Source: Magnetococcales bacterium
Lineage (GTDB): Bacteria > Pseudomonadota > Magnetococcia > Magnetococcales > Magnetaquicoccaceae
DNA: 41,063 nt
Assembly: GCA_015231775.1 (NCBI GenBank)
Contig: JADGAY010000011.1
Location: 1-41,063 of the forward strand
Direction of reading: 5' to 3'
In this document: positions 11,488 to 20,490 of the stretch, piece by piece
Position numbering within the stretch: the first letter of the stretch is position 1
Layout of the letters: each line of letters begins with the position of its first letter
Made by a program: the position numbers and the translations under genes
Notes under the pieces: generated by a model
The model's input: the letters and a program-made list of their open reading frames with translations, nothing else
Told to the model about the DNA's origin: nothing
Databases searched by the model: none

Positions 11488-12531
11488 ATGATCATGAACC
11501 ATGATACCCGAGAGTTGGGCAGACTCTACAAACAGGGCGAGATCATCTTTCGACAGGGTGAGTTCTCCGACAAGTTCTTCATGGTGCGGAAAGGACGGGT
11601 CGAGCTGACCCGTGACTCTTCGGCGGGCAAGAGCATGCGGGTGGAGATCAGCGATGGGGAGATCTTCGGGATCGCCTCGGCCTTCACCACCAACCACGAG
11701 CGGTTCGCCACCGCCAAGGCCCTGGAGGACTCCTACATTCTCGGCATCGATGAAAAGATGTTCGTGGCGCGGATGCATCAGGATCCGTCGATCGCCTTTC
11801 GTCTGATCCGCCATCTCTCCCAGCGTCTTTTTGATCTGGAGCATGGCTCGACCAAGAGCCTGGAGAAGGGCAAGAAGGCCGCCGGTGCATCGAAGAGCGA
11901 CAAGAGCGACAAGAGCGACAAGGGCGATAAAAATGACAAGAAATCCAAGACCGATCTTCTGTCACCGTGTCGCAAACTGCCGAATGTCCACGATTTCAGC
12001 GTCTGTTACCATTTTCTGATCGTCGAGGATGAGATCGAGTTCTTCACGGTGATCGAGAGTTGGTTGGCCAATTCCGTGGAGAACCGCGACGATCCCAACG
12101 CGCCGTCGTTATACAAACTCACCCATGCCGCCTCCTTCCAGGAGGCTGAACAGCGACTCGGACAGGACAAGTACGATCTGATTCTGTTGGATCTCAATTT
12201 AAGCGACAGTCAGGGGTACGAACAGACCTTCGTGCGCATGCAGGCCATGGCCTTCGATACCCCGATCATCGTCTTCACCGGCATGGATGATGATCATCAG
12301 GCCATCCAGGCGGTGGAGGATGGGGCGCAGGATTACCTGATCAAGGGCCAGGTGAACCGGCGTACCCTGGTGCGGGCCATCCAGCACGCCCTCTCCCGGC
12401 ACAAGATGCAGCGCATGGCCATGGAGGAGTTCGAAAACCATAAAGAGGAGAACGGCAACAAGTACGCCGTGATGCTGCGCGATTGGCTGCATCGTTGCAT
12501 CGTGCCGAATCATGAGTACTCCAAGGCGTAA
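11488..12531 (+). CDS. cyclic-nucleotide-binding domain plus receiver protein
   Basis: 347 residues. A CRP-type cNMP-binding beta-barrel (about 10-125: K-Q-G-E-I-I-F-R-Q-G-E is the typical entry) is joined by a very polar linker (about 130-160) built of repeated K-S-D/K-G-D/K-N-D triplets to a CheY-like receiver (about 175-300) with phospho-acceptor Asp235 (L-L-D-L-N-L), the acidic pair E-D-E near its start and Lys in I-K-G. No helix-turn-helix is visible, so it is not a CRP transcription factor; output is probably protein-protein. It starts 7 nt after the hybrid kinase stop and is the last member of the four-gene signalling unit. An ATG two codons later is an equally possible start. Confidence 0.85.
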   Translation: MIMNHDTRELGRLYKQGEIIFRQGEFSDKFFMVRKGRVELTRDSSAGKSMRVEISDGEIFGIASAFTTNHERFATAKALEDSYILGIDEKMFVARMHQDPSIAFRLIRHLSQRLFDLEHGSTKSLEKGKKAAGASKSDKSDKSDKGDKNDKKSKTDLLSPCRKLPNVHDFSVCYHFLIVEDEIEFFTVIESWLANSVENRDDPNAPSLYKLTHAASFQEAEQRLGQDKYDLILLDLNLSDSQGYEQTFVRMQAMAFDTPIIVFTGMDDDHQAIQAVEDGAQDYLIKGQVNRRTLVRAIQHALSRHKMQRMAMEEFENHKEENGNKYAVMLRDWLHRCIVPNHEYSKA

Positions 12532-13534
12532 ACCGGTTCATTGTCTGATCCACGCACGGCAGTCGGGTGGCATGGCCCGGCTGCCGTTCTTGTTGTTTGG
12601 GTCGGTGGTGGTCTTCGTGGCCGGTTTGTCGTTCGGCGGCGTCGGAGGGGGTGTGGCCGGGATCTGGGATTGGCTGGTCGGCAACGGGGATCCCCTGTTC
12701 GGGCGGGTGGTTCTGGAGTTGCGACTGCCGCGCGTGGCCGGGGCCATGGCTGTCGGTGGTCTGCTGGCCCTGTCGGGGGTGTTGATGCAGGTGTTGATGC
12801 GCAACCCCCTGGCCGATCCGTATGTGCTTGGTCTCTCCGGTGGCGCGGCCTGCGGGGCGATTCTGGCCCTGGCGAGCGGAGCCTCCGGGGTGTGGGTCGA
12901 TGGCGGGGCCTGGTTCGGGGCGCTGGTGTCGATGCTGGTGGTGCTGGGATTGGCCGGGGGCCCGACGGGTTGGGAGGGGGGATCGCGTCTGCTCCTGACC
13001 GGTGTCGTGGTGGCTTCGGGTTGGGGTGCCGGGGTGAGCTTTCTGCTGTATCTGCTCCCCGACGAGCGGTTGCGCGGCGCGTTGTTCTGGCTGATGGGGG
13101 ATCTGGGACGGGGCGGCGATGCCACCCTGCTGGTGGGGATTCTGATCGTGTTGCTGGCCGTGACCTGGCCGGTGGGGCGGGCGTTGAATCTGTTGGCCAC
13201 CGGCGTGGAGCGGGCCGCGAGTCTCGGAGTGGCGGTGGGGCCGCTCAAACTGCTGCTCTATCTGGTCGCCTCCCTGGCCGCGGCCTCCGCGGTGGCGGCG
13301 GTCGGCAGCATCGGCTTCGTCGGGTTGGTGACCCCCCATCTGTTGCGGCTGGCCGGATGCGTGGATCATCGTTGTCTGTTGCCGGCCTCGGTGTTGCTGG
13401 GCGGGATGCTGCTCACCCTGGCCGATCTGTTGGCGCGCACCCTCATCGCCCCCCAACAGATGCCCGCCGGGGTTCTGACCGCGCTGATCGGGGCCCCTCT
13501 GTTCGTGTGGCTTCTGCGTCGGAGCGGTCGGTGA
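12512..13534 (+). CDS. FecCD/BtuC-type ABC permease
   Basis: 340-residue integral membrane permease of the iron-siderophore/cobalamin/heme import family. It shows about ten hydrophobic segments and family motifs: L-R-L-P-R-V near the N-terminus, the L-M-R-N-P-L-A-D-P-Y-V-L-G block and the cytoplasmic coupling region G-F-V-G-L-V-T-P-H. The annotated start overlaps the preceding gene by 20 bp; ATG 12572, preceded by GGGTGG, is an alternative that keeps all TM helices. It is followed by the cognate ATPase with a GTGA overlap. No periplasmic binding protein (BtuF/FecB) is found in the window, so the substrate cannot be assigned from the operon alone. Copper, heme, corrinoid or siderophore are all possible. 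Confidence 0.92.
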   Translation: MSTPRRKPVHCLIHARQSGGMARLPFLLFGSVVVFVAGLSFGGVGGGVAGIWDWLVGNGDPLFGRVVLELRLPRVAGAMAVGGLLALSGVLMQVLMRNPLADPYVLGLSGGAACGAILALASGASGVWVDGGAWFGALVSMLVVLGLAGGPTGWEGGSRLLLTGVVVASGWGAGVSFLLYLLPDERLRGALFWLMGDLGRGGDATLLVGILIVLLAVTWPVGRALNLLATGVERAASLGVAVGPLKLLLYLVASLAAASAVAAVGSIGFVGLVTPHLLRLAGCVDHRCLLPASVLLGGMLLTLADLLARTLIAPQQMPAGVLTALIGAPLFVWLLRRSGR

Positions 13535-14340
13535 GTACAGCATTGGATAATCCAGATGACACGCGCATCATGACCCCACTCCTGACCGTCGAAGGGTTGC
13601 GTTTGGGATGCGGTGGACGTGACTTCTGCCGCGATCTGGCCTGGTCGATCCGGCCCGGCGAGCGATGGGCGATCCTGGGCCCCAACGGCGCGGGTAAATC
13701 CACCCTGCTGCACGCCCTGGCCGGACTGCGCGGTCCGGATGGCGGCGAGATCCGACTGGCCGGTCAACCCCTTGCCCGCCTCTCCAGACGCGCCGTGGCC
13801 CGCGAGATCGGCATTCTCTTTCAACAGATCGATTACACCTTGCCAGCCACCGTGCTTGCGACGGTCCTGGGGGGGCGCTATCCGCATCGTGCCTTCTGGT
13901 CACAAGAGAGCGGGGAGGATCTCGATCTGGCCCGTCGCGCCTTGCGCCTGACCGGGTTGGAGGGTCTGGAGGAGCGTCCGGTGGCCACCCTGTCCGGGGG
14001 GGAGCGGCGGCGCATGGAGGCGGCGACCCTTTTGGTGCAGGATCCTCGGGTGCTGTTGCTCGACGAGCCGACCAACCATCTGGATCTCAACCATCAGATC
14101 GCCCTGCTGGAGCTGTTCACGGAGCGGGTGCGGGTCACCGCCGGGGCCATGGTGCTGGTTACCCACGATATTCATATGGCGGCACGCTATTGCGACCGTT
14201 TCTTACTGGTGCATGGGAACGGTAGGTGCGATCAGGGCGGTCGGGAGGCGATGTTGACCCCGGAACGGTTGAGTCGTCTGCTGGATCATCCCATGCGCAT
14301 GGTGAACGCGGACGGGGAGCGTTTCTGGTTGCCCGCCTGA
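13531..14340 (+). CDS. ABC transporter ATPase, FecE/BtuD type
   Basis: 269 residues. Walker A G-P-N-G-A-G-K-S-T (50-58), Q-loop near 98-99, signature L-S-G-G-E (154-158), Walker B V-L-L-L-D-E-P (174-180) and switch His212 (V-T-H-D) are all intact, so it should hydrolyse ATP and drive the FecCD permease. I chose the GTG at 13531 because GGAG lies 5-8 nt upstream and it overlaps the permease stop as GTGA; ATG 13570 is the alternative, giving a 256-residue product. Confidence 0.93.
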   Translation: MSTALDNPDDTRIMTPLLTVEGLRLGCGGRDFCRDLAWSIRPGERWAILGPNGAGKSTLLHALAGLRGPDGGEIRLAGQPLARLSRRAVAREIGILFQQIDYTLPATVLATVLGGRYPHRAFWSQESGEDLDLARRALRLTGLEGLEERPVATLSGGERRRMEAATLLVQDPRVLLLDEPTNHLDLNHQIALLELFTERVRVTAGAMVLVTHDIHMAARYCDRFLLVHGNGRCDQGGREAMLTPERLSRLLDHPMRMVNADGERFWLPA

Positions 14341-14508: not shown

Positions 14509-15735
14509 GTGTTCGATCCGGTCATCATCGAGGAGATCATCGCGCTGTGGAAGCCGGATTCCGGCGCCCTGGAGGATCCTGTGCTGTTTCAGCAGGTGCG
14601 GACCATCATGGAGATGGTCTTTCTGGCCGGTTTGAAGCGCAATGAAGATCGTCCCGTGCGGGTGGGGGTCTCCCTGACCAACCCGGCACTACTGCCCGAC
14701 AAGGGTCGTGCCGGTGAGAGCATCGTCTTGCGGATGTCGCCCCGGCAGCCCATGACCGTCGATACCCTGGTGAAACTCGCCCCCGCCTTTGACCCGGATA
14801 CCACGGTTCTGGCGGTCTGGGGCAGCGAGGAGGAGCCGGCGGAACTGGAGATCTGGAGCGCCATCTTCACCACCCATCGGGGTCGCAACCGTTTCGATGC
14901 CCTGCCGCTCGAGCAGGCCTCGCCCAACTCCCTGGCGATCATCACCAAGCGCACCGGTTCCTTGTCGATCTACCAGGGGGATGATCTGATCGCCCGGTTC
15001 AAATCAGGCCGATTCCTCGAACCGGTTCACAATCATTTCACCTCGGGTTTGATGGGTTGGCGCTTTCTGGAGGTGGTGAAACGTCACCCGGAGTTCCAAA
15101 AGCTCGGCATGAAATATTGGCATACCTACCGGGATTTCATCGATTATCTCCTGATGGAGACCGATCGGCGCGGCCATGGCGGGATCATTGTCTGGCTCCC
15201 CTCGGACTTCATCGATCCCGAATCCCACTGCATCATCCCCAAGCATAATCTCACCGAGAGTCCCGACGGAGCCAACCTCATCGGTGAGTTGTGCGACGTG
15301 GAACATCAGCAGGAGCTGTTCCGCAAGGATGCCGCCGAAGCCTCCTCCCTGGCCACCATCTGCATCATCGGCGAGACCGTCCTCGAGTGCAAGCGCAAGG
15401 TGATCGAGCACGCGGAGATGCTGGCGCAGATGACCTGCGTGGATGGCGCCCTGATCATCTCCGACCGGCTGCGCCCCCTCTCCTTCGGGGCGTTTCTCTC
15501 CGCGCCGATCTGGCAGGAGCGGATCATCTACTGGAAGAACAACAAGGCCCAGCACCTGGACCGGGACGAACTCTTCTCCCGCTACGGCACCCGCCACAAT
15601 GCCACGGTCAATTTCGTCGGCCACTATCCAGGTTCCGCCGCCTTCGTCATCTCCCAGGATGGCCCGATCAGCGGTCTGACCAAAAAGGATGATCACGTCA
15701 TCCATTGGTGGCCGGACTGTCTGGGCAAGTACTGA
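14509..15735 (+). CDS. DACNV-type sensor with diadenylate-cyclase-like C-terminus
   Basis: 408 residues, soluble. The N-terminal two thirds resembles the DACNV domain that precedes DAC domains. The C-terminal ~100 residues follow the DAC (DisA/CdaA) layout: D-G-A at 312-314 (D-G-A-L-I-I-S-D), a S-F-G-A-F-L strand, and Y-G-T-R-H-N-A-T (362-366 = R-H-N-A-T) where active cyclases have G-T-R-H-R-A. Known DAC enzymes make c-di-AMP from two ATP with DGA and RHR as core residues; here the third residue of RHR is Asn, so activity is uncertain and nucleotide sensing is an alternative. The GTG start at 14509 has a very strong GGGGAGGGG site; a TTG at 14458 is the longer option. It sits 168 nt after the ABC ATPase and before the TonB receptor. 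Confidence 0.75.
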   Translation: MFDPVIIEEIIALWKPDSGALEDPVLFQQVRTIMEMVFLAGLKRNEDRPVRVGVSLTNPALLPDKGRAGESIVLRMSPRQPMTVDTLVKLAPAFDPDTTVLAVWGSEEEPAELEIWSAIFTTHRGRNRFDALPLEQASPNSLAIITKRTGSLSIYQGDDLIARFKSGRFLEPVHNHFTSGLMGWRFLEVVKRHPEFQKLGMKYWHTYRDFIDYLLMETDRRGHGGIIVWLPSDFIDPESHCIIPKHNLTESPDGANLIGELCDVEHQQELFRKDAAEASSLATICIIGETVLECKRKVIEHAEMLAQMTCVDGALIISDRLRPLSFGAFLSAPIWQERIIYWKNNKAQHLDRDELFSRYGTRHNATVNFVGHYPGSAAFVISQDGPISGLTKKDDHVIHWWPDCLGKY

Positions 15736-15780
15736 TTCCCCACCTTGATGGCGCGGTGTGAACGTTCGAATACGGCGTTC

Positions 15781-15900
15781 GCACCCTGCCGCGCCTTGAC
15801 GCACCCAGCCGTACCGTGCCGCACCCTGCCGTACCCTGCCGTACCCTGCCGTACCCTGCCGTACACTACCGTACCCTGCCGCACCGTGCCGTACCCTGCC
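15781..15900. repeat. tandem array of twelve 10-bp units (consensus GTACCCTGCC)
   Basis: Twelve contiguous 10-bp units in exact register, with a decayed thirteenth at 15901. Five are identical to GTACCCTGCC (15831, 15841, 15851, 15871, 15891); the others differ at 1-4 positions, mostly GCACC for GTACC. The unit equals about one helical turn. It lies in the non-coding gap between the DACNV gene and the TonB receptor. The outer units on the left are the most degenerate, as expected for an array that grows and shrinks by slippage in the middle. Confidence 0.95.
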
Positions 15901-15952
15901 GCACCTTCCAGCGACGCTTTCCAGATTCCTCATGGCCGTTTGTGTCGGGGTG

Positions 15953-16144: not shown

Positions 16145-18559
16145 ATGATGATTCAGAAAGTCCGTTGTCTGACGTTGGCCGCGCTGTTCGCGTTGCCGGG
16201 ATTGGCCATGGCCGTCGAGGGGGGGGAGTCCACCACGTCGGGCAAGGGTGAGTCGGTCCGGAAGGAGTCCGGGAGCGTGCTCAAAGAGGTGGTGGTCACC
16301 GCACCGCGTATCGACGAGCAGGGAATCGTGGACGGAACGACACGCTCTGCATCGGATATGACCCCTATCCGTCCGACAACCAGCGATGCCGCATCGCTGT
16401 TGAAAGACATTCCCGGCGTGAGTCTCTACACGGGTGGTGGCGTCTCCTCGCTGCCGGTGGTGCATGGTCTGGGTGATGATCGCTTGAAGACCCAGGTGGA
16501 TGGCATGAATCTGATCTCCGCCTGTCCGAACCACATGAATCCGACCCTCTCCTACATCGATCCCAACAATGTCGAGAGCGTCAAGGTCTACTCAGGCGTG
16601 ACGCCGGTCAGCGTGGGTGGCGACAGCATTGGCGGCACGATCCAGGTTAACTCCAAGGAACCGAAGTTCGCCAAGCCGGGAGCCGGCATGCTGGTTACCG
16701 GACAGGCCGGCACTTTCTATCGCACCAACGGCGATGCCTTGGGCGGCAATCTCGATGCCACGGTCGCCGGGGACAAAGTGAGCCTCTCCTACAACGGTTC
16801 GACCGCGAAATCCGAAAACTATACGGCTGCAAAAGCTTTCCACGATACGGGTAAAATTTCAGCCACCTCTGATCGGGCTGGATTGCAAGGTGACGAGGTG
16901 GGTTCCTCGCGCTACAAGACCGAAAACCACGAAATCGGTTTGGCCGTGAAGCAAGAGAACCATCAGGTTGAGTTGAAACTCGGTTTGCAGCACATTCCCT
17001 ATCAGGACTATCCCAACCAGCGCATGGACATGACCCTGAACGAGAGCGTGCACGGCAATCTGCACTACACCGGCAAATTCAACTGGGGCAATCTGGATGC
17101 GCGGGTCTACGACGAGCATACCCGTCACCGGATGGATTTTGGGCCGAACAAGCAGTTTACCTACGGTACGGCCATCAATGCGACAAGCCTGATTGCTCCC
17201 GGCATGCCGATGTTCACCGATGGCACCAACCTAGGGGCAGAGGTCAAGGGCGAGATCACCCTGTCGGAGCGGGATACGTTGCGGTTGGGTATCGAGGGAT
17301 TGCGCCATCGTCTGGACGACTGGTGGCCGCCGTCACCGGCGACGCTTCCGGCGATTTATACCAATACCTTCGGCGGTGGTAGTGCGACTCCTTACGGCGG
17401 GATGTCGCCGGATACATTCTGGAACATCAACAATGGTCAAAGAGATCGGATCGATCTGTATGCGGAGTGGGAGGCCCGTTGGAATCCGCAATGGACGACG
17501 CAGTTGGGTCTCCGCAGCGACAATGTGATGATGGATACCGGAACGGTACATGGGTATAACAATGGCACTAAAGGGCCCGGTTACGGCGACCCGGCAGATC
17601 CGAACAGTCCTCCTGGGAAATTCAATGCGGCGGATCGGCAGCGCACCGACAACAACATCGATCTGACCGCCTTGTTGCGGTACACGCCGGTTGCCTCTGG
17701 CAGTTACGAAGCCGGTTATGCGCGCAAGTCGCGCTCCCCGAATCTTTACGAGCGCTATGCATGGTCGCCGCACACCATGGCCATGGAGATGATCAACATG
17801 TTCGGGGATGGCAACTTCTACATCGGCAATCTCGACCTGAAGCCGGAGGTGGCCAACACGATCAGTGTGTCCGCCGATTGGCGCGGGGAGGGGACGCACA
17901 AGTGGAATCTCAAGCTCACCCCCTATTTTACCCACATCGAGGATTACATCGATGTGCGGCGTTGTCCGAGGGATGTCTGCACAACGGCGACCGGGGCACT
18001 CGCGACACCCGGAGGGGCGGTGGACAAGTCTTCTCAGGGCGCCACCACGGGTTATGTGTATTTGCAGTACATCAACCAGAGTGCGCAGTTGTATGGATTG
18101 GATGTTTCTGGTCATGTGCTGCTGGCGGAATCCCCGACTTATGGCGCACTGACCCTCAACGGCATGGTGAACTATGTGGTGGGTGAGAATCGCACCACCG
18201 GGGATAACCTCTACAATATCATGCCTCTGAACGGGAAAATGTCGTTGGTGCACCAACGGGATGGCTGGACCGGAACCATCGAGGAGCAGTTGGTCGCGCC
18301 GAAAAATGATGTCTCCCAGACCCGCAACGAGCTCAAGACCTCCGGGTATGGTCTGTTGAATCTGCGTGGAAGCTATGAATGGGAGAAGGTTCGTCTGGAT
18401 CTCGGGGTGGAAAATGTGCTGGATCAATTTTACAATCTGCCATTGGGTGGGGCCTATGTCGGGCAGGGGGCGACCATGACTTCAACCGAGCCGCCATGGG
18501 GCACGCCGGTTCCGGGCATGGGTCGGACCTTCTATACGGGCCTGAGCGTGAAGTTCTGA
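16145..18559 (+). CDS. TonB-dependent outer-membrane receptor, OprC/NosA-like (copper)
   Basis: 804 residues with a signal peptide (about 1-23, ending A-M-A). The K-E-V-V-V-T-A-P TonB box is at 47-54, the plug domain at about 75-185, and the C-terminal 22-strand barrel ends in aromatic Phe (S-V-K-F). The plug holds A-C-P-N-H-M at 126-131, i.e. Cys127-x3-Met131, and a loop carries His328-x-Met330. This CxxxM...HxM set is the copper-binding signature described for Pseudomonas OprC, where the two halves are about 180 residues apart (201 here). No heme FRAP/NPNL or B12 features were seen. The start is ATG 16145 (or 16148) with AGAGGAG upstream. It is followed by a strong terminator, then tonB-exbB-exbD. 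A corrinoid or siderophore receptor is the alternative. Confidence 0.88.
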   Translation: MMIQKVRCLTLAALFALPGLAMAVEGGESTTSGKGESVRKESGSVLKEVVVTAPRIDEQGIVDGTTRSASDMTPIRPTTSDAASLLKDIPGVSLYTGGGVSSLPVVHGLGDDRLKTQVDGMNLISACPNHMNPTLSYIDPNNVESVKVYSGVTPVSVGGDSIGGTIQVNSKEPKFAKPGAGMLVTGQAGTFYRTNGDALGGNLDATVAGDKVSLSYNGSTAKSENYTAAKAFHDTGKISATSDRAGLQGDEVGSSRYKTENHEIGLAVKQENHQVELKLGLQHIPYQDYPNQRMDMTLNESVHGNLHYTGKFNWGNLDARVYDEHTRHRMDFGPNKQFTYGTAINATSLIAPGMPMFTDGTNLGAEVKGEITLSERDTLRLGIEGLRHRLDDWWPPSPATLPAIYTNTFGGGSATPYGGMSPDTFWNINNGQRDRIDLYAEWEARWNPQWTTQLGLRSDNVMMDTGTVHGYNNGTKGPGYGDPADPNSPPGKFNAADRQRTDNNIDLTALLRYTPVASGSYEAGYARKSRSPNLYERYAWSPHTMAMEMINMFGDGNFYIGNLDLKPEVANTISVSADWRGEGTHKWNLKLTPYFTHIEDYIDVRRCPRDVCTTATGALATPGGAVDKSSQGATTGYVYLQYINQSAQLYGLDVSGHVLLAESPTYGALTLNGMVNYVVGENRTTGDNLYNIMPLNGKMSLVHQRDGWTGTIEEQLVAPKNDVSQTRNELKTSGYGLLNLRGSYEWEKVRLDLGVENVLDQFYNLPLGGAYVGQGATMTSTEPPWGTPVPGMGRTFYTGLSVKF

Positions 18560-18675: not shown

Positions 18676-19428
18676 ATGACCGGCTCCGTGACAACCGCGT
18701 GCGTCGTGACGAGGGAGGCGGAAGGGCGAGTCTGGCGGGCTTTCGTGCTCTCCCTGCTCGTGCATGGCTTTGTGGTGGCGGGCTTTTGGGCCAGGCCCGC
18801 GTCCCAGCCACGCCTGGAGCGCTCCGAGCTGTTGTTCGAATTGCGGGAGGCGGCGCAACCGGTCGTTTTGCCCGCGCCACCCCCGCCTCCCGAGGAGCCG
18901 CCTCCCAAACCCGAGGAACCGGTGGCCCCGCCACCGCCTCCCCCGCCCAAACCAGAGCCGGAACCGGTGAAACCGCCGCCGCCCAAGGAACCACCGGTTG
19001 CGCGCAAGGTGGTCAAACCGGCGCCGATCGTCCGGCGTGCCGAACCGGTTCCCGCCGAATCGACCGATGTCGCGCCGCTTCCCATGAGCGCCCCACCGGT
19101 GGTCCCCGCGCCGACGGCCAGCGCGCCGGTCGAACCGGTCTATCGTGCCATGGACCTGGGCGCGGCGCTGGCTGGGAATCCTCGTCCCGACTATCCCCGT
19201 TCCGCCCGCCGTCTGGGACAGGAGGGGTTGGTGATGGTGCGGGTGGAGGTGAGTGCCGATGGCCGCGCGGAGCGGGTCGCGTTGCAACAGAGTTCCGGCT
19301 TCGAGGCGTTGGACCAGGCCGCCCTGGATGCGGTGGCACGTTGGCGCTTCGTCGCGGCCAGACGCGCGGGAGTCCCGGTGGCCGCCACCGTGACCGTTCC
19401 CATTCGCTTCGTGTTGCGGGAAGGGTAG
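18676..19428 (+). CDS. tonB: TonB energy-transducing protein
   Basis: 250 residues. An N-terminal membrane anchor (about 20-38, with the functional His in L-L-V-H-G-F) is followed by a long Pro/Glu/Lys-rich periplasmic span (about 65-120) and a C-terminal TonB_C domain with Y-P-x-x-A-R-R (here D-Y-P-R-S-A-R-R), G-x-V-x-V-x-V-x-V layout and A-A-L-D-A-V-A-R-W-R-F. It couples the inner-membrane proton gradient to the outer-membrane receptor. The placement directly after an OprC-like receptor and before exbB/exbD suggests a dedicated TonB. A GC-rich stretch of Gs precedes the ATG rather than a classic ribosome site. Confidence 0.95.
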   Translation: MTGSVTTACVVTREAEGRVWRAFVLSLLVHGFVVAGFWARPASQPRLERSELLFELREAAQPVVLPAPPPPPEEPPPKPEEPVAPPPPPPPKPEPEPVKPPPPKEPPVARKVVKPAPIVRRAEPVPAESTDVAPLPMSAPPVVPAPTASAPVEPVYRAMDLGAALAGNPRPDYPRSARRLGQEGLVMVRVEVSADGRAERVALQQSSGFEALDQAALDAVARWRFVAARRAGVPVAATVTVPIRFVLREG

Positions 19429-19481
19429 TGTCGATGTCACAATAGGGGGCTTTTTTTGTCAGCGACAATCCAAACAAGGGG

Positions 19482-20099
19482 ATGACATTGAACGAATCGG
19501 TCTCCTGGCTGGCGTGGTGGGTCCATGCCGATGGGGTGGTAAAGGGGATTTTTCTGCTGCTGATCGCCCTGTCGATCGGCGGCTGGACGATCATTTTGCA
19601 CAAGTGGAGCCGCTTTCAGGGACTGCTCAAACGCGAGCGACGCGTGCGTCTCGCCCTGGAAGCGGGTGAGGGGGGCTCTGCCTTCGAATCGTTGCTCGGC
19701 GCCTATCTACCCGACTCACGGAATGGCACGGCGCTGGGTGAGGCACGGTTGGCCCTGGCGGTGCGCGAGGCGCGGATCGAACTGGAGAGCGGTCTGACCT
19801 TTCTGGCCTCCATCGGGGTCTCCACCCCCTTCATCGGCCTGCTCGGCACGGTCTGGGGGATCATGCACGCCCTGGCCGGCCTGGGGCATGGCTCGGCCCT
19901 GTCGCTGGATCTCGTGGCCGGCCCGGTGGCCGAGGCGCTGGTCGCCACCGCCGCTGGCCTGTTCGCCGCCATTCCGGCGGCGGTTGGCTACAACATGCTG
20001 GTGCGACGGTTGCGGCGCTTGATGACCCTGGCCGAGGGGAATCTCTTGCGTCTGGCGGCGTTGCGCCAAGGAGACGGACGTGGCCGGCTGGCTGAGTGA
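19482..20099 (+). CDS. exbB: ExbB proton-channel subunit (MotA/TolQ/ExbB family)
   Basis: 205 residues, three TM helices: about 18-40, then the pair at about 105-130 and 145-170. The family core is S-T-P-F-I-G-L-L-G-T-V-W-G-I-M, followed by A-E-A-L-V-A-T-A-A-G-L-F-A-A-I-P-A. It forms the pentameric channel around the ExbD dimer. The ribosome site AAGGGG directly abuts the ATG at 19482; the TTG at 19488 has a normal 6-nt spacing and may be the true start, which would remove only two residues. The 3' end overlaps exbD by 20 bp. Confidence 0.94.
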   Translation: MTLNESVSWLAWWVHADGVVKGIFLLLIALSIGGWTIILHKWSRFQGLLKRERRVRLALEAGEGGSAFESLLGAYLPDSRNGTALGEARLALAVREARIELESGLTFLASIGVSTPFIGLLGTVWGIMHALAGLGHGSALSLDLVAGPVAEALVATAAGLFAAIPAAVGYNMLVRRLRRLMTLAEGNLLRLAALRQGDGRGRLAE

Positions 20100-20490
20100 T
20101 GCGGAGGGCGAGGATCGCCCGCTTTCGGAGATCAACGTCACCCCCTTGGTGGATGTGATGCTGGTGTTGCTGGTGATCTTCATCATCCTGGCACCGGTGA
20201 TGGCCAACTCCCTCAAGGTGGCTCTTCCCAAGGCAAGCGGCGAAATGGCCGCCGCCCAGACCCCGGTGATCATCCTCCTGGAGGCCGATGGCACCATGCG
20301 ACTGGGTGAGCGCGCCATCGACCGGGAGGCGCTTGCCGCCCATCTCAAAGAGGCCGCCGCCCGCGATCCGGAGTTGCTGCTGCGCATCGATGCCGATGGC
20401 GCCACCGCCTATCAGAAACTGGCCGAGCTGCTCTCCCTGGTGCAGGAGCAGGGGATTCGCCGCATCGCCTTCACCACCCTGCGACCCTGA
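20080..20490 (+). CDS. exbD: ExbD/TolR proton-channel subunit
   Basis: 136 residues: a short cytoplasmic tail with E-I-N-V-T-P-L-V-D-V-M-L-V-L-L, in which the Asp is the essential protonatable residue inside the single TM helix, then a periplasmic domain that binds TonB. GTG start with AAGGAG 6-11 nt upstream, overlapping exbB. Stop at 20490 ends the tonB-exbB-exbD unit. Confidence 0.95.
   Translation: MAGWLSDAEGEDRPLSEINVTPLVDVMLVLLVIFIILAPVMANSLKVALPKASGEMAAAQTPVIILLEADGTMRLGERAIDREALAAHLKEAAARDPELLLRIDADGATAYQKLAELLSLVQEQGIRRIAFTTLRP

Follow-up and report, generated by a model that had tools for sequence, protein, structure and literature searches.

A divergent diadenylate-cyclase-like DACNV protein of Magnetococcia that probably acts as a signalling enzyme

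Proteins in which a DACNV domain (Pfam 'Probable sensor domain DACNV') precedes a diadenylate cyclase (DAC) domain are the closest described counterparts of the protein analyzed here. The definition of DACNV reportedly goes back to Galperin in 2023. The enzymes CdaA/DacA, CdaM and DisA (PF02457) are the canonical diadenylate cyclases. REC-GGDEF response regulators are dinucleotide (c-di-GMP) cyclases controlled by phosphorylation.

We analyzed a DACNV protein encoded in a 41,063-nucleotide stretch of DNA (the window), which is an entire contig (C40) of the 3.82 Mb draft genome of a bacterium of the Magnetococcales. Its host lineage, the Magnetococcia, is a deep class of magnetotactic Pseudomonadota. 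The protein is a new member of the known DACNV-DAC family and has the same order of domains, DACNV then DAC-like. It differs from the described DACNV-DAC proteins in having RHN rather than RHR, and its Magnetococcia paralogues, which are little described, add REC-PAS or GAF domains in front. With CdaA/DacA, CdaM and DisA it has in common the predicted fold, the DGA motif, G-x-RH and the serine of SEET. In contrast to these enzymes, it has no recognised transmembrane part and no YbbR, has SQDG in place of SEET, is longer in the stretch from DGA to GTRH, and carries another residue at the third position of RHR. It is not filed as a canonical DAC because it falls short of the Pfam cut-off and lacks the last R and SEET. 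The REC-PAS-DACNV-DAC paralogues, with their predicted output, have the logic of REC-GGDEF regulators, although the catalytic fold of the latter is unrelated. Based on the modelled fold and on conservation, we consider it reasonably likely that the window protein is a soluble, sensor-gated, divergent signalling enzyme of the diadenylate cyclase type. The protein probably functions as an active enzyme in signalling and not as a sensor of metal.

The gene and the predicted fold of its product

The open reading frame at window positions 14509 to 15735 (forward strand, as for the domains and motifs below) is a real gene. We annotated it from the reading frame, Pfam matches, alignment of its start, the structural model and dN/dS. 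It encodes 408 amino acids from a GTG start that aligns with the MFD start in nearly all relatives, and a purine-rich stretch, GGGGAGGGG, lies 5' of the GTG. Comparison with six congeners gave dN/dS values of 0.06-0.17, indicating that the gene is under purifying selection. The protein had no match among the PADLOC defence models.

Residues 28-116 (14590 to 14856) match DACNV (PF21751), a presumed sensor or regulatory domain, with 49.3 bits against a curated cut-off of 27. The protein thus belongs to the family to which the sequence-only reading had assigned it. C-terminal of DACNV, a DAC-like domain extends over about residues 203-403 (15115 to 15717), as judged from Foldseek, profile comparison, motifs and a Nitrospira relative. 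The canonical DAC model (PF02457) gave 16 bits at residues 309-388, below its cut-off of 27.

We found that the protein is predicted to have the fold of a DAC. An AlphaFold2 model made with 34 relatives had a mean pLDDT of 86.6 and a pTM of 0.82. When this model was compared with 350,542 PDB chains using Foldseek, the best 50 matches listed were all diadenylate cyclases (CdaM, DacM, CdaA/DacA and DisA), with a best E of 2.5e-3, a probability of 1.00 and target-normalised TM-scores up to 0.60. Judged from the model, the structural match to diadenylate cyclases is specific but distant. The structural comparison proposed in the sequence-only reading therefore turned out in favor of a DAC core.

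The N-terminal half, folded separately (pLDDT 83.6) and compared with PDB folds as a Foldseek control, had no match (best E 1.4), indicating that it is the C-terminal half that gives rise to the resemblance to DACs. As modelled, the DACNV half has no clear counterpart among solved folds. A sequence that resembles the tail of a DAC, TGSLSIYQGDDLIARF, raised the possibility that the DACNV half might be a second copy of the DAC domain that has degenerated. We rejected this idea; the hhalign probability was 1.6% and there was no match to a DAC fold.

The C-terminal half aligned with 21 canonical DACs in hhalign with an E of 5.8e-9, and DGA, GTRH and S-x-x-G were in register. In the Nitrospira relative, PF02457 scored 27.4 bits (cut-off 27) and covered DAC positions 7-116 in one stretch. 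In contrast, plain sequence searches of the PDB with the protein or a family profile retrieved no DAC, and the likeness was detected only by profile-profile comparison and fold search. The earlier suggestion of a DAC-type nucleotide enzyme is supported by the Foldseek and hhalign results and by the invariance of residues among 76 homologues.

Conservation of the active-site motifs

The sequence-only reading had noted DGA and GTRHNAT in the layout of a DAC. We found both in DAC order and aligned with canonical DACs: DGA at residues 312-314 (15442 to 15450) and GTRHNAT, the counterpart of GxRHRxA, at residues 360-366 (15586 to 15606). SQDG, the counterpart of SEET, is at S382-G385 (15652 to 15663). 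The 76 homologues aligned came from Magnetococcia, Desulfobacterota and other 'Deltaproteobacteria', Nitrospira, Methylobacter and Acuticoccus. Ten columns were invariant (E46, G224, D312, A314, G360, R362, H363, S382, D384 and G385), nine of them in the DAC domain and mostly within the three motifs. The G of DGA was present in 75 homologues and the Q of SQDG in 67. Because the motifs align with canonical DACs and, except for the third position of RHR, are conserved in the homologues, they are not due to chance. Of the features of a canonical DAC, the fold (in the predicted structure) and DGA are present, and GxRHRxA and SEET are absent.

The residue after RH (position 364) was free to vary in the family and was N, A, T, S, G, H, K, I or R. 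RHR was present in DACNV proteins of Methylobacter and Nitrospira relatives, and all members seen in Magnetococcia and Desulfobacterota were without it. Because this position varies freely, RHN is weak evidence for inactivity. It is also a poor sign of a dead enzyme because some DACNV members have RHR, and because CdaA-YbbR-type proteins of Desulfobacterota and relatives (L162, L163, L164 and L169) have RHT or RHH yet score 117-127 bits as DACs.

Mutations in described enzymes bear on these positions. CdaA of Leptospira loses all activity with D172A or with R203A, a change at the first R of RHR, and keeps half of it with S222A (PMC12974146). The equivalents of all three residues are invariant in the DACNV family. 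Mutants in which RHR is changed to AAA are dead (PMC3328451, PMC4568413, PMC13022847), which counts against a diadenylate cyclase here; we found no report of a single mutation of the third R in the literature examined. The sub-threshold PF02457 score, the change from SEET to SQDG and the V in place of the H before DGA also count against it. DisA-type enzymes likewise lack this H (PMC12974146).

Some of these departures would fit a non-catalytic nucleotide sensor, whose DAC fold would relay the binding of ATP or c-di-AMP to a partner, and in which the chemistry was lost together with the third R and the glutamate of SEET. The cation-coordinating E of SEET and the third R are indeed gone, and no Magnetococcia or Desulfobacterota member seen has RHR. 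The sequence-only reading had taken RHN to favor such a sensor. However, position 364 accepts R among its nine residues, and the members with RHR make a shared loss event unnecessary. Moreover, two residues that are essential in Leptospira CdaA (PMC12974146), the Asp that acts in trans and the first Arg of RHR, are invariant, and a pure binder would not need them. We consider a sensor of this kind unlikely.

The distance from DGA to GTRH is 48 residues here, compared to 30 in canonical DACs, and a beta hairpin is predicted within the extra residues (residues 338-349; 15520 to 15555; AlphaFold2 secondary structure). Tyr187 of Listeria CdaA, a residue able to stack on the base (PMC10167629), maps inside this interval. 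The extra residues may alter the choice of base, which counts against a c-di-AMP cyclase. Together with SQDG, they might make the protein a nucleotide cyclase with another product, in which the base differs or the dinucleotide is linear or mixed. We regard this as quite unlikely, as the PgpH-type phosphodiesterase present in nearly all Magnetococcia genomes (see below) fits c-di-AMP.

Neighbors of the DACNV gene

The DACNV gene had been described as lying between an ABC importer and a copper-type TonB receptor and as possibly tied to metal or cofactor uptake. The importer and a TonB receptor are present. Upstream are genes for a FecCD-type ABC permease (12512 to 13534, forward strand; PF01032, 2.2e-76) and a FecE-type ABC ATPase (13540 to 14340, forward strand, start approximate; PF00005). 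The best NCBIfam models were of the FhuB and BtuC types for the permease and of the F420-0, heme and corrinoid types for the ATPase, all below their cut-offs. The gene for a TonB-dependent receptor is downstream (16145 to 18559, forward strand). The label 'copper-type' was not borne out. The receptor scored 105 bits with the TonB-copper model (cut-off 472) and 144 bits with the TonB-hemin model (cut-off 317), and the heme-, lactoferrin- and copper-type models were all below cut-off. Genes for TonB, ExbB and ExbD are found 3' of the receptor gene, at window positions 18676-20490.

We found that this arrangement was not conserved. FecCD-FecE lies directly upstream of DACNV in the window and in two congeners (L037 and L039), and with one gene between in a third (L032); this neighborhood is limited to the genus. 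The TonB receptor is beside DACNV in the window's genome only, and our survey did not encounter the order FecCD-FecE-DACNV-TonB receptor beyond one species. Downstream of DACNV, six congeners (L032, L033, L034, L035, L037 and L039) have a BtuB-like receptor and a cobalamin riboswitch that scores about 100 bits; in L039 they are farther off and in the opposite orientation. BtuF-like, CobU and CobT genes come next in several of the six. Rfam models detected no riboswitch in the window, and the cobalamin riboswitch of the window's genome is on another contig (C115:258-484).

A tandem repeat with a 10/20-bp unit, ACCCTGCCGT, lies between the DACNV gene and the receptor gene (15780 to 15905). With the B12 riboswitch on another contig, we considered a contig misjoin at this repeat. 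There was no sign of one, and the repeat occurs nowhere else in the genome, although a misjoin might still have occurred.

These neighbors could indicate that the protein serves specifically to regulate uptake of metal or B12, acting on the adjacent ABC and TonB genes. Consistent with this, FecCD-FecE is upstream in some congeners, and the riboswitch and BtuB-like receptor are downstream in congeners, with CobU and CobT nearby. A CobU/CobT pair is also found beside a REC-PAS-DACNV gene in L088, and in Desulfobacterales (L134, L135, L136, L143 and L147) genes that resemble an ABC permease and ATPase are upstream of DACNV and divergent from it, along with a gene for a ZnuA-like binding protein in L135. 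We take the L088 pair and these metal-type ABC genes as hints only. In contrast, the neighbors are gone outside the genus while the gene persists in 43 of 48 Magnetococcia genomes (26 of the 27 good genomes). The riboswitch is 3' of the DACNV gene and therefore has no control over it, and in the window's genome it is not even on the same contig. Furthermore, we found no partner gene or neighbor conserved with DACNV across the class, which also argues against a sensor that signals to a partner. The link of the DACNV gene to metal uptake is weak, and we consider a dedicated uptake regulator highly improbable. Because DACNV has no metal genes among its stable neighbors in the class, pursuing metal uptake would misdirect experiments.

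Paralogues, PgpH and a predicted dinucleotide network

A sample of 351 other Pseudomonadota contained no member of the DACNV family. The family is present in scattered other bacteria, and the order DACNV then DAC is shared by Nitrospira, Methylobacter, Acuticoccus and Desulfobacterota. The general statement that DACs are rare in Pseudomonadota holds, with one family excepted.

Magnetococcia genomes have up to three copies of DACNV, including paralogues with REC-PAS (for example, in L067, L078, L073, L089, L066 and L058) or GAF (L082, L054 and L064) ahead of the DACNV-DAC module. In a tree, 21 REC forms made up one clade (100/100), and the GAF forms were in a separate clade of 11 rows (100/99) that included one stand-alone protein. 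Inspected by eye, the REC domains are intact, with the acidic pocket, the phosphoacceptor Asp, the Thr/Ser and the Lys. A module behind input domains of the REC-PAS or GAF type is normally an output. These architectures suggest that DACNV-DAC is an output module, a position that favors catalysis over sensing and speaks against the non-catalytic sensor.

PgpH-type 7TM-HD proteins were found in 46 of 48 Magnetococcia genomes, including that of the window, and above cut-off in 1 of the 351 other Pseudomonadota. The protein from the window's genome (L210:1306-3711) has all three parts, 7TMR-HDED (PF07697, 111.9 bits), 7TM (PF07698, 88.6 bits) and HD (PF01966, 67.6 bits). Its gene is flanked by genes that resemble phoH and lnt in sequence. 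PgpH is kept in genomes in which DACNV was not found, and it is present in just 3 of 11 distant DACNV genomes. The co-occurrence of PgpH and DACNV fits turnover of c-di-AMP, but their shared descent within one class is a confounding factor.

The DAC fold, the hhalign alignment, the invariant motifs, the REC-PAS and GAF fusions, PgpH and purifying selection support a diadenylate cyclase. From the computed fold, conservation, architecture and gene content, we infer its catalysis, product, dimerisation and sensed signal as follows. Two C-terminal DAC domains would pair head to head, each binding metal-ATP, with R362/H363 and S382 on the phosphates and D312, perhaps also D384, in catalysis or metal binding. 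The product of the pair would be a cyclic dinucleotide, with c-di-AMP as the most likely one. Upon a signal, pairing of the DAC domains would be gated by the DACNV region, or in the paralogues by REC-PAS or GAF; the window copy would be the stand-alone form, controlled by a signal sensed by DACNV. The PgpH-type protein of the genome would degrade the product.

Our genome search found no canonical DAC in Magnetococcia; the sole matches above cut-off besides DACNV proteins were two divergent DAC-like proteins. We tentatively propose, with slightly less than even confidence, that Magnetococcia have a dinucleotide network whose cyclases are all DACNV proteins without RHR. Some of these would be REC-PAS-DACNV-DAC response regulators that phosphorylation switches, and PgpH would turn the signal off. 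Such a network would place c-di-AMP or a related dinucleotide under two-component control, and the last Arg of RHR would be dispensable. If the proteins are active, c-di-AMP-type signalling would be at the core of the magnetotactic Magnetococcia; a search of the open-access literature found nothing relevant on DACNV or on c-di-AMP in magnetotactic bacteria. The RHR motif used for calling active DACs would then need revision, and the REC paralogues would offer cases of a diadenylate cyclase that might be switched directly by phosphorylation.

The two divergent DAC-like proteins (L156:844-1920 and L157:778-1731) are of a second, shorter type without DACNV, and have DGCT, RHAT or RHAS, and SQDGP. 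The gene in L156 is just upstream of a gene for an AAA+ ATPase.
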